A stretch of DNA of 28,527 bases, taken from the IMG/VR virus record IMGVR_UViG_3300027747_001410, positions 1 to 28,527 of that record. One strand, given 5' to 3'. Position 1 is the first letter of the stretch, and every line of letters starts with the position of its first letter. The stretch is from a virus. The translations under genes were made by a program, and so were the position numbers. Under the pieces are notes generated by a model. That model was not told the DNA's origin, did not search any database, and saw only the letters and a program-made list of their open reading frames with translations. This document shows positions 23,283-26,458 of this stretch, one piece after another.

Positions 23283-24353
23283 TTACACGCCAACGTTGTT
23301 GCAGTAAACGCCCGCCATCGGAGCGACAACGGCTGCAACGCTGTTGTCGATCACGCGGCCTTCGATGCGGCGGTTGTGCGGATCGTCCCAGTTCTCCACG
23401 GTCATGTCCTCGAAAGCGAAGATTTGAACCGTGCTGAACGAGGTCGCGCCTTCAACGCCGACCAGGCCACCCGGACGCGACAGGAAGGCAACCTTGCCAT
23501 CGCCCCAGATGTAGGAGCGAGTTTCCGAACGGCTCGAGTTGTTCGCGCCGGACGGAATCACCTTCTGCGTGGTCACCTGCACCGAATCATCGACCACCAC
23601 TCGCGCGCCGAACAGGTACGGAGGCAGGCCGTACTTGCTGAACACGTCCGAACCCTGAAGGAACGGAAGCGCGGCGGGGTAGTTCTTGACGTAATCACGA
23701 ACTTCGCCGGACGAAGAAATCTGATTTGCAGTCGCGGGAGACATAACCATGCAAACGTCTTCCGGACGAACTGCACCTGCGGTCGCAAGCGCAATGATGC
23801 GGAAAGATTCCTGCACGGCCTTCTGAATGTAGTTCTGACTGGTGCTCGAGTACCAATTACCGCCACCCGTGAACGCGCTGCCGTTCGACTTGTAGCCACC
23901 GTACGAATAGAACGGGCTACTCGAGGTTTGCTGCGTCAGCAGCGCAGCAGCGCGCGCCGTGCGAGCCGTCATGGCGAGCTGAGCCTTGCTGCGCGCGTGA
24001 GCCGCAACAACGTCCCAAGCAGCCTGCTTCACCGTCTCGTTCGGGATGTAGAACGGGAAGGCGTACCGCTGCGTCTGATACGCGATGAAATCGGACTCAT
24101 TCTCCTTGCCGAGAGGACGGCTGTTGCCAAGCGGCCAGTTGAATTCATTGCCCGACACGTATCGAACATTGTCATCCGGGTTCAGACGAAGGTAGTAACC
24201 CGTCATCTGATTGACGGGGACGATCTGCGCATACTGCGTGATCGCAAAAGTGTTGATCGCGCGGGTGAATTCAACCTGAAGCGCACCCGTAGCGATGGAA
24301 TTGGTCGAGGGGACGTAGGTATTGAGTCCGCCTCCAGTTGCCGTAAATGCCAT
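23283..24353 (-). CDS. Major capsid protein
   Basis: 356 residues, ATG preceded by AAGGAGA. It carries no signal or membrane segment. Features such as EFTRAINTFAITQYAQIV, YAFPFYIPNETVKQAAWDVV, VCMVMSPATANQI and KYGLPPYLFGARVVVDDSV look like an HK97-fold shell protein with an N-arm, long helix and A-domain. It lies between decoration and adaptor genes. Residues 6-15 (TGGGLNTYVP) are identical to residues 287-296 of the protease-scaffold, so a short N-terminal arm shares a sequence with the scaffold. Confidence 0.88.
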   Translation of the reverse strand: MAFTATGGGLNTYVPSTNSIATGALQVEFTRAINTFAITQYAQIVPVNQMTGYYLRLNPDDNVRYVSGNEFNWPLGNSRPLGKENESDFIAYQTQRYAFPFYIPNETVKQAAWDVVAAHARSKAQLAMTARTARAAALLTQQTSSSPFYSYGGYKSNGSAFTGGGNWYSSTSQNYIQKAVQESFRIIALATAGAVRPEDVCMVMSPATANQISSSGEVRDYVKNYPAALPFLQGSDVFSKYGLPPYLFGARVVVDDSVQVTTQKVIPSGANNSSRSETRSYIWGDGKVAFLSRPGGLVGVEGATSFSTVQIFAFEDMTVENWDDPHNRRIEGRVIDNSVAAVVAPMAGVYCNNVGV

Positions 24354-24382
24354 GATTCAGTCTCCTTGTGTTGGATGGCGGA

Positions 24383-24805
24383 TTAGGACGCGGTTCCCTT
24401 GACGGAACCAAGACGGTAGGCCCAAAAGACCTGTCCCTGTGCCGTAGCGGGCTCAAGAGCAACGAACATCGGAATGGTTCCGGCTCCCGCGCCGACAGCC
24501 TTCGACACCGCGCCATTGACATCGGTGGTGTCCACAATCAGACCATCGCCGGCTGCAACGTTGGTACTACCAACGGCTGCGGCCGCGACAACCTGAACGG
24601 TCGGGGACGGCTGAAGGCTGATGGGATCGCCCGAGATGGCGTGATACGCCGAATCAAAGCGACGAGTCGAACCATCGGTAACGCCAACAACGAAATCGGC
24701 GTTGGCACTAGAGGCGGCACCAGTCCAGGCGGTGGTGCTCATCTTGACCACGCTGTACGGGTTAATGTTGCCGCCTGCAACGAGCTGGGGGGTGTAGTTA
24801 AACAC
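24383..24805 (-). CDS. Capsid decoration protein
   Basis: 140 residues from a GTG at 24805 with AAGGAGACAC. The composition is strand-rich with many Val, Ala and Gly (VVGVTDGSTRRFDSAY, VQVVAAAAVGSTNVAAGDG, GAGTIPMFVALEPA). The pattern matches DUF2190-like head decoration proteins, which cap the shell's surface. The location between scaffold and major capsid genes, as with lambda D, supports this. Confidence 0.78.
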   Translation of the reverse strand: MFNYTPQLVAGGNINPYSVVKMSTTAWTGAASSANADFVVGVTDGSTRRFDSAYHAISGDPISLQPSPTVQVVAAAAVGSTNVAAGDGLIVDTTDVNGAVSKAVGAGAGTIPMFVALEPATAQGQVFWAYRLGSVKGTAS

Positions 24806-24817
24806 TTGAGTGTCTCC

Positions 24818-25546
24818 TTACTTCTTGATGCGAGAGTTGATCGCGCGGGCAAATTCTTCGGGCTTGCCGGCGAACTGCTTGACGAGGGAACCGATGTCAG
24901 AGACATCGACGTTGCGCGGAAGAGCCGCGCGGCTCATGTCGATCTTGGTGCCGATGGGGTCACGAGCGAACAGGTCGCGCCAGGACTCCAACAGGCCAAC
25001 GGCATCGCGGGAAGCCATGAGCGAAGCAACGAGGTTGTCGCGCTGCGCTTCGGGGATGCGGTAGCCCTCCTGCTCCATGATCTCGATTTCGCGCGCGAAC
25101 TTCTCGCGCTTCATCTCGGCCTCGAGCCGGGACATACGCGCCTTGAGGCGGGCATTCTCGGAACGGATGGCGTAGGTCGAACGCTTGGAAGCAAGGATTT
25201 CTTCCTCCTCCTCGTCCTCGTCGCCGTCCATGTCGATGCTGTCCGGTGCGCCCTCGTGGCTGCCGATGTCGATGTGAACGCCATCTTCGGCCGCGTGCAG
25301 CTTGTGAACGCGCGCGCCGCCGGCATCCTCGTTCGTGCCTTCGTATTCGGCCTCGTAGGACGAACCCTTCTTGCCGGACTTCGCCTTCGCTTCTCCTTCG
25401 GCTTCCGCCTCGGCATCCGCCTCGTACTTGCCCTTCCAGTCATCGACGGGGGTAGCGTCGAACTTGGTCTTGATCGCCTCGCACATAGCCTCAAAGGAGC
25501 TCTTCATGGCCTCCATGTGCTTCGCAATCTCTTCGTGAGTAGCCAT
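24818..25546 (-). CDS. Nested scaffold protein (internal in-frame start)
   Basis: An internal ATG at 25546 (residue 305 of the 546-residue frame) has AAAGGAG 10 bases upstream. From it a 242-residue acidic, helical protein would be made. It has EDGDEDEEEEE-like acidic segments and a long coiled coil at precursor residues 425-470, the properties of a scaffold. Lambda makes Nu3 in just this way from the end of the C protease gene. Whether the internal start is used cannot be told by eye. Confidence 0.5.
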   Translation of the reverse strand: MATHEEIAKHMEAMKSSFEAMCEAIKTKFDATPVDDWKGKYEADAEAEAEGEAKAKSGKKGSSYEAEYEGTNEDAGGARVHKLHAAEDGVHIDIGSHEGAPDSIDMDGDEDEEEEEILASKRSTYAIRSENARLKARMSRLEAEMKREKFAREIEIMEQEGYRIPEAQRDNLVASLMASRDAVGLLESWRDLFARDPIGTKIDMSRAALPRNVDVSDIGSLVKQFAGKPEEFARAINSRIKK

Positions 25547-26458
25547 TTCGGCTTTCTCCTTTGTGGCGGTCGGCACATAAGTATTCAGTCCACCTCCGGT
25601 ACCGACCATATCGAAGTTGGACTTTGAACAAGTGATCTTCTTGCCCTGGCGCGCGAAATGCGTATCAGGCAGGGGCCGGCGCGGCGTTTCGCGGCCAAGC
25701 AGGGCGACTTCGGACAGGTGATTGCTCTCCGACCAAATCTCCGCGCTGCGGCGCGGGAAAGCATTGGTCGCAATCAACTTGTCGAAAATCGGCTTGTTGA
25801 TTTCCATGTCTCCCACAATGTACCCAACGCCATTGCGTTCTTCGTAATTGATTGCGGGAATTCGTCCTACCGCGCTCTTCGGCTCGTCACCCTTCTTCTC
25901 GTGCAGGATGACCACCTGCGGATACGAACCACGCGCCATATGCGCGCGCGTAGTGCGAACGATGTTCTTTAGCCGCTCGTTGTCGAACCGCTTCAGCTCG
26001 GGATCGTTCTCGCCGTCATCAATGGCTGGGTCGAACGCCATGAACAGTTCCACGCGGTGCAGCGTGGCCTTGTCCTCGGCTTCGGTCACCTCGTGGGATG
26101 GGTTGTCGGTTCGTTCGTTCATGGTCTTTGTCTCCTTGCGATCAAGCGCATTCACCTTTGAATCCGCCCAGGCCTTGCCGCTGTCGCCGCCCCACAGGAG
26201 CCACGCAACATGGCCGGCGGACGGGTATCCCTCCGATCCGGCCTCCCATCCCTTGCCCTTCTTGTCCACCTCGTGACGGGCAAAGAACGAATGCATCCGG
26301 CGCACGGTGTCCGGGGACAGGTTCTTGCGGTTCTTGATGTCCCGCGCTCGAGCAACGCCGACTTCCGTGCCGCCGCGTCCGTGCTTTTCGCGCAGCTCCA
26401 GGCCACGCGCAGCGTTGTGCGCCATCGCTTCGGTTGGCTTTAGGTCAATGTCATTCAT
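24818..26458 (-). CDS. Prohead protease-scaffold fusion
   Basis: 546 residues in three parts. Part 1 (1-112) has the small domain EKHGRGGTEVGVARARDIKN, SPDTVRRMHSFFARHEV and PSAGHVAWLLWGGDSG, seen also as a separate phage gene. Part 2 (113-304) resembles capsid-maturation proteases: GRIPAINYEERNGVGYIVGDMEI, NAFPRRSAEI and HLSEVALLGRE. His247 and the Ser239/249 region are candidate catalytic residues. Part 3 (305-546) is acidic and helical, like a scaffold. Strong Shine-Dalgarno sequences precede in-frame ATGs at the part boundaries (26122 and 25546). The start ATG overlaps the SGNH gene stop (ATGA). Confidence 0.78.
   Translation of the reverse strand: MNDIDLKPTEAMAHNAARGLELREKHGRGGTEVGVARARDIKNRKNLSPDTVRRMHSFFARHEVDKKGKGWEAGSEGYPSAGHVAWLLWGGDSGKAWADSKVNALDRKETKTMNERTDNPSHEVTEAEDKATLHRVELFMAFDPAIDDGENDPELKRFDNERLKNIVRTTRAHMARGSYPQVVILHEKKGDEPKSAVGRIPAINYEERNGVGYIVGDMEINKPIFDKLIATNAFPRRSAEIWSESNHLSEVALLGRETPRRPLPDTHFARQGKKITCSKSNFDMVGTGGGLNTYVPTATKEKAEMATHEEIAKHMEAMKSSFEAMCEAIKTKFDATPVDDWKGKYEADAEAEAEGEAKAKSGKKGSSYEAEYEGTNEDAGGARVHKLHAAEDGVHIDIGSHEGAPDSIDMDGDEDEEEEEILASKRSTYAIRSENARLKARMSRLEAEMKREKFAREIEIMEQEGYRIPEAQRDNLVASLMASRDAVGLLESWRDLFARDPIGTKIDMSRAALPRNVDVSDIGSLVKQFAGKPEEFARAINSRIKK

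Follow-up and report, generated by a model that had tools for sequence, protein, structure and literature searches.

Why should the capsid protein of a virus and the protein encoded upstream of it carry the same ten residues? This question is raised by the window analyzed here, the whole 28.5 kb record of an uncultured virus (IMG/VR IMGVR_UViG_3300027747_001410, 28,527 nucleotides). The protease-scaffold gene lies upstream of the major capsid protein (MCP) module, with one small gene between them. The relevant features are the following:

23283-24353, minus strand: MCP, 356 aa, predicted HK97 fold (Foldseek against the PDB; phrog_1005 and phrog_29 in relatives)
24309-24338, minus strand: copy 1 of TGGGLNTYVP, MCP residues 6-15, DNA ACTGGAGGCGGACTCAATACCTACGTCCCC
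24383-24805, minus strand: small decoration-like protein between the protease-scaffold and MCP genes (function suggested by position)
24818-26458, minus strand: putative protease-scaffold fusion, 546 aa (gene order, invariant H186 and S238, BFVD Foldseek matches)
24818-25546, minus strand: scaffold part, predicted separate product from an internal ATG (M305, 25544-25546; M305 conservation, coiled-coil/acidic region and conserved C-terminus)
25556-25561, minus strand: AAGGAG, internal Shine-Dalgarno-like site for the scaffold (sequence)
25571-25600, minus strand: copy 2 of TGGGLNTYVP, protease-scaffold residues 287-296, interdomain linker, DNA ACCGGAGGTGGACTGAATACTTATGTGCCG
25655-26098, minus strand: putative maturation-protease domain, residues about 121-268 (conserved block)
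26129-26458, minus strand: N-terminal accessory domain of the protease-scaffold, phrog_2859, optional in relatives

The initial annotation had described TGGGLNTYVP in both proteins, and both copies are indeed found at MCP residues 6-15 and protease-scaffold residues 287-296. Seven of the ten codons differ between the copies, each at the third base only, as described. There is no further such 9-mer in the six frames of the window, the small protein between the two genes lacks the motif, and within the head region it is limited to the MCP and the protease-scaffold. In 2000 shuffles the longest word shared by the two proteins was usually 4 residues and at most 6. The motif stands out in both proteins, with a mean conservation of 3.8 bits for MCP residues 7-15 compared to 2.6 for residues 1-6, and of 3.6 bits for protease residues 288-296 compared to 2.6 and 1.9 in the flanks. 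The protease copy appears as a conserved island within a linker that is predicted to be disordered. In the AlphaFold2 models, pLDDT is below 50 for residues 1-32 of the MCP and over residues 273-310 of the protease-scaffold, a stretch that spans the motif. Judged from these models, both copies are probably disordered and hence accessible.

Which proteins carry the peptide? The MCP model (pTM 0.77) gave 353 PDB matches at E <= 0.001 in Foldseek. The best was 3bjq (E 9e-12), followed by PhiM1, T5, HK97 and lambda, and the HK97, T5 and lambda capsids are among the matches listed. The MCP has no Pfam match, and its relatives match phrog_1005 and phrog_29 ('major head protein'). The model thus predicts an HK97 fold. 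The upstream protein consists of an optional N-terminal domain, a conserved block, a disordered linker, a coiled-coil/acidic region and a conserved C-terminus. Among 55 relatives H186, S238, H247 and E250 are invariant in the conserved block. No Pfam or PDB family match was obtained and no sequence library calls the protein a protease. Foldseek against BFVD returned several 'Prohead protease' matches, all with low TM-score and some of them via other domains. The PDB fold search gave no match, probably because the model is mostly of low confidence (pTM 0.34), and the hhalign probability for homology to Mu I was below 1%. We take the upstream protein to resemble prohead-protease signatures. Because of this presumed resemblance and the place of the gene, which in relatives sits between a head morphogenesis gene and the MCP gene, the protein is best read as a maturation protease fused to a scaffold.

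The N-terminal ~110 residues of this protein form a mobile domain, phrog_2859, that many relatives of the window lack. The same domain is N-terminal in proteins annotated as major capsid protein from Roseobacter CRP phages and Synechococcus S-CBS1/3, and Vibrio and jumbo phages have it as well. A single ORF of ~820 residues with this annotation in Roseobacter CRP-811 and Synechococcus S-CBS1/3 (L084 4559-7009; L086 4251-6761; L087 4444-6954) seems to combine an accessory domain, a protease, a linker and a capsid protein in one chain.

Is the pair a peculiarity of one genome? A search of related phages for paired conservation had been suggested earlier. Relatives were gathered by the MCP, a protease pattern, an MCP C-terminal pattern and the motif itself, so that the scans were mostly not keyed to the motif. 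After removal of duplicates, IMG/VR yielded 196 distinct MCP/protease pairs, and in 190 of these the MCP and the protease both contain the core G(x)1-3[NSD]xx[VI]P. The remaining six carry recognizable variants: in three the protease copy reads PGSGNTYVT, and in three from a remote lineage the MCP has PGNSN[TV]YIK and the other protein PGGSNTHVP or PGGSNTN[IV]D. The core pattern occurred in only 1 of 980 control windows from the MCP body and 2 of 452 from the protease. In this large group of uncultured tailed phages, essentially every locus that holds both regions retains the pair, and it persists at MCP identities down to about 35-40%. A search for isolate relatives of the MCP found none, and among isolates only the N-terminal accessory domain of the protease-scaffold was matched. 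In GTDB genomes a first profile detected no relatives, and a wider profile detected two MAG contigs.

Two groups are worth recording here. One protease lineage (L289, L302, L385) has a linker without a recognizable motif, on contigs that stop before the MCP. The most divergent lineage (L351, L366, L372, L373) has a different-looking protease-scaffold that was missed by the profile, with PGGSNT in its linker; here a subtilisin-like protease ORF lies a few kb upstream.

The copies do not merely persist; they change together. Close relatives have GGGLNT[YF][VI]P in both copies, and lineage D as a rule GGGLST[YF][VI]P in both. In L228 an S replaces the L in both copies. Lineage E has AEVAPGGGNTFVP in the MCP and SEVAPGGSNTFVP in the protease, L291 has DPGPTNVQIP and DPGPTNTSIP, and L319 has FAYTGVGGGQNVFVP and FSYTGAGGGGNTFVP, respectively. 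Residues upstream of GGG also co-vary (EVAP/EVAP, FAYTG/FSYTG, EYGI/EIGV). Own pairs outscore permuted pairs with p = 3e-5 over nine deep lineages, an inexact value to which ancestry shared among the lineages contributes, and for 14 of 15 representatives the real pair scored above all or almost all shuffles. A chance likeness of two glycine-rich linkers might be imagined, since both copies lie in flexible segments. Such a coincidence is refuted by the shuffles, which fall short of the observed match, by the permuted pairings and by the rarity of the core in control windows against its presence in 190 of 196 pairs; we give it practically no weight.

The pair could also be a relic of duplication or of repeated gene conversion that serves no shared function. 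The second copy could have arisen by duplication, and the match spans almost the whole MCP N-terminus. However, at residues identical in both copies the codons agree in 39% of cases compared to 43.8% expected from codon usage, the motif is kept amid protease flanks of much lower conservation, and the pair has outlasted MCP divergence to the identities given above. A relic is therefore very improbable, and gene conversion or recent DNA exchange is rejected as a general cause because codon identity at matched residues is not above chance. Some positions are altered in one copy only, so the copies have not simply been copied. The earlier claim that the protein sequence was kept while the DNA drifted silently thus extends from the window to the whole group. 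Relatives in which one copy varies freely had been named as evidence against a shared element, and this is partly what we see in lineage C: the MCP keeps GGGL[NS]TF[VI]P, while the protease copy has diverged to G[VA]GNVF[VI]P, e.g. (P)GVGNVFVP. Taken together, the paired conservation, the lineage-specific co-variation and the lack of any sign of DNA copying strongly support, at the level of sequence comparison, a common constraint acting on both proteins, as the initial annotation had supposed.

What lies next to the protease copy? The motif had been placed between the protease and scaffold parts. This placement is right and can be sharpened, since the motif directly precedes a conserved internal scaffold start. 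In the window it is followed by AAGGAG and then by the ATG at 25544-25546, and M305 is kept in at least 90% of 55 relatives. A Shine-Dalgarno-like site and a start closely follow the motif in 314 of 340 loci, compared to 17.6% of control in-frame ATGs; among the examples listed, 5-12 codons separate motif and start. Thus, a candidate in-frame start with a ribosome-binding site is located after the putative protease domain, in a layout like that of Mu I/Z. Because both signals are conserved after the motif, the scaffold is probably also translated alone from this start, and the motif would then be confined to the full-length fusion. The motif appears to separate the protease from a scaffold that can be translated separately.

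Given their joint change, the two copies probably have a common reader, for which the phage's maturation protease is the most likely candidate. Our main reading, with a probability of roughly one half (about 0.52), is that the motif is a shared recognition or cleavage site of this putative protease. The same motif is indeed found at the protease boundary and at the MCP N-terminus. The cut would be made during prohead maturation, at the motif or next to it. A cut in cis would part the protease from its own scaffold, and a cut in trans would trim about 15 residues off the MCP N-arm. Since the scaffold is probably also made from the start just downstream, the cut product and the internally started product would be nearly the same protein. 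Both copies would have to fit one protease pocket, and this is why they would drift jointly between lineages. A site used in cis and in trans would explain where the motif lies, why it would be missing from the scaffold made alone, why both copies are exposed and why they change in step. If this is correct, the finding predicts the mature MCP N-terminus and the scaffold release point in a group that has no cultured member.

Several observations argue against this reading, at least in its simple form. Some copies have lost the final P (L331 NTYVT, L373 NTNID, MCP of L351 NTYIK) and others the aromatic residue (L291). A proline as invariant P1 was rejected, since a few lineages have K, D or T in place of the P after [VI]. 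The N/S alone is near-constant, and no other residue seems constant enough to serve as P1 in all lineages. The protease copy of lineage C has drifted while the MCP copy has not. The MCPs of the similarly organized Mu and JBD30 keep their N-termini. The proposed protease domain has no sequence family match and no detectable relation to Mu I. Finally, a match of 9-15 residues would exceed what cleavage needs: the known P2 sites, GDVSKKF|TVEP and TEYLEF|CRTA, have only the F before the cut in common, so a protease should require no such extended match.

The length of the match might be better explained by a docking peptide. Here the MCP N-terminal peptide would bind a groove in the procapsid, on a neighboring MCP or on the scaffold C-terminal domain, and the mimic in the protease would bind the same groove and place the enzyme on the shell without any cleavage at the motif. 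We regard this as a serious rival, although a distinctly less probable one. Both the 9-15 residue match and the co-variation, which includes residues upstream of GGG, exceed a short protease site, and the final P tolerates change. Residues 1-14 of gpN dock under the P-domain of the neighbor in P4 procapsids (PMC7552001), and T4 internal proteins have N-terminal capsid-targeting sequences of 10-20 residues (PMC7411985). On the other hand, the fusion already has a scaffold domain for recruitment and the separately started scaffold would lack the motif. The AlphaFold2 monomer of the MCP shows no docking of the N-arm, although a monomer could not show a groove between subunits. The predicted disorder of both copies, as far as these models go, does not decide between cleavage and docking, and docking followed by cleavage is possible. 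Cleavage site and docking element were the two guesses of the initial annotation, and the sequence is compatible with either. A more elaborate version, which we hold only tentatively, is that a co-evolving mimic of the MCP N-terminus docks the protease-scaffold in the inner-shell groove of the N-arm. Maturation would then be triggered where shell and enzyme are rivals for this groove or pass it on. Cleavage may follow in this case, but would not be the reason for the long match.

The partner might also come from outside the pair, as a host or phage chaperone or a host protease that handles both proteins. There is a precedent in phage 80alpha, where the host protease Prp reads a motif of CP, SP and ribosomal protein L27, and where a shared chaperone was among the possibilities put forward (PMC5744158). 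Strong co-variation between lineages, however, fits a partner encoded by the phage better than it fits a conserved factor of the host, the protease copy is internal rather than N-terminal, and the same chain already includes a candidate phage protease. We therefore consider an outside partner unlikely.

Two further similarities were noted. Besides the MCP and the protease-scaffold, the scan for other carriers of the motif turned up only one unrelated family, of surface proteins with GGG[FL]DTY[VI]P (L143, L177 (927 aa ORF), L114, L125, L161, L147, L151, L189). In these secreted or surface proteins, which have a Thr-rich stalk, [FY]GGG[FL]DTY[VI]P immediately precedes a hydrophobic segment at the C-terminus and may be a juxtamembrane signal of their own. 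In the window, EFTRAIN of the MCP (residues 28-34; 24249-24272) resembles EFARAIN at the scaffold C-terminus (residues 535-541; 24833-24856). Only lineages A and D have kept this likeness; B and C have lost it, and it is thus probably incidental.

The shared decapeptide is therefore real. It is constrained as protein sequence, is more general than a single stretch of DNA could show, and points to a recognition shared by capsid and scaffold/protease in head maturation. How does this compare with known phages? A close parallel is SPN3US, whose protease gp245 cuts off both its own C-terminal propeptide and the propeptide at the MCP N-terminus, using one common motif, the AXE sites (PMC7411985). 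In gp245, as in T4 gp21, one motif marks both the boundary of the protease propeptide and the MCP propeptide. However, the SPN3US site is about two residues long and many head proteins have it, while here 9-15 residues are shared by two proteins only and cleavage is predicted. In P2, gpO cuts itself and gpN; gpN is cut after residue 31, and gpO 1-141 defines the protease boundary (PMC7552001). This resembles our prediction of a scaffold-fused protease that cuts itself and the MCP N-arm. The two P2 sites, unlike the extended peptide here, share a single residue, and the authors of the P4 procapsid structure reported no motif like the gpN N-arm in gpO (PMC7552001). CP and SP of 80alpha have a common conserved sequence, and Prp removes 13-14 N-terminal residues (PMC5744158). 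A short conserved sequence common to MCP and scaffold near an N-terminus is thus found in both systems, but in 80alpha the enzyme is from the host, the motif is N-terminal in both proteins and also present on ribosomal protein L27, and its sequence is different.

In Mu, too, the protease gene precedes the MCP gene and contains an in-frame internal start for the scaffold (I/Z and T), but no sequence relation was found and I and T have no shared peptide. The Mu T start was confirmed by amino-acid sequencing (note in the Mu record), and in JBD30 MCP residues 2-14 are described in the structure, with the N-terminus kept. Comparison of N-arm and protease in P2, Mu and JBD30 gave nothing significant. 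In HK97 (L445) gp5 has DGKQGTF (residues 90-96), in the delta domain of the MCP just before the maturation cut, and gp4 has DGKQGIF (residues 20-26), with p about 0.04 by shuffling and possibly by chance. The literature that we searched held no paper on such a shared extended peptide, which does not prove that none exists. Shared maturation sites are already known, and the phage-protease ones compared here are motifs of one to three residues. The present loci differ in that a peptide of 9-15 residues has been kept in two different proteins and has changed jointly in both across deeply diverged uncultured phages, a natural record of the co-evolution of a capsid shell with its maturation enzyme.
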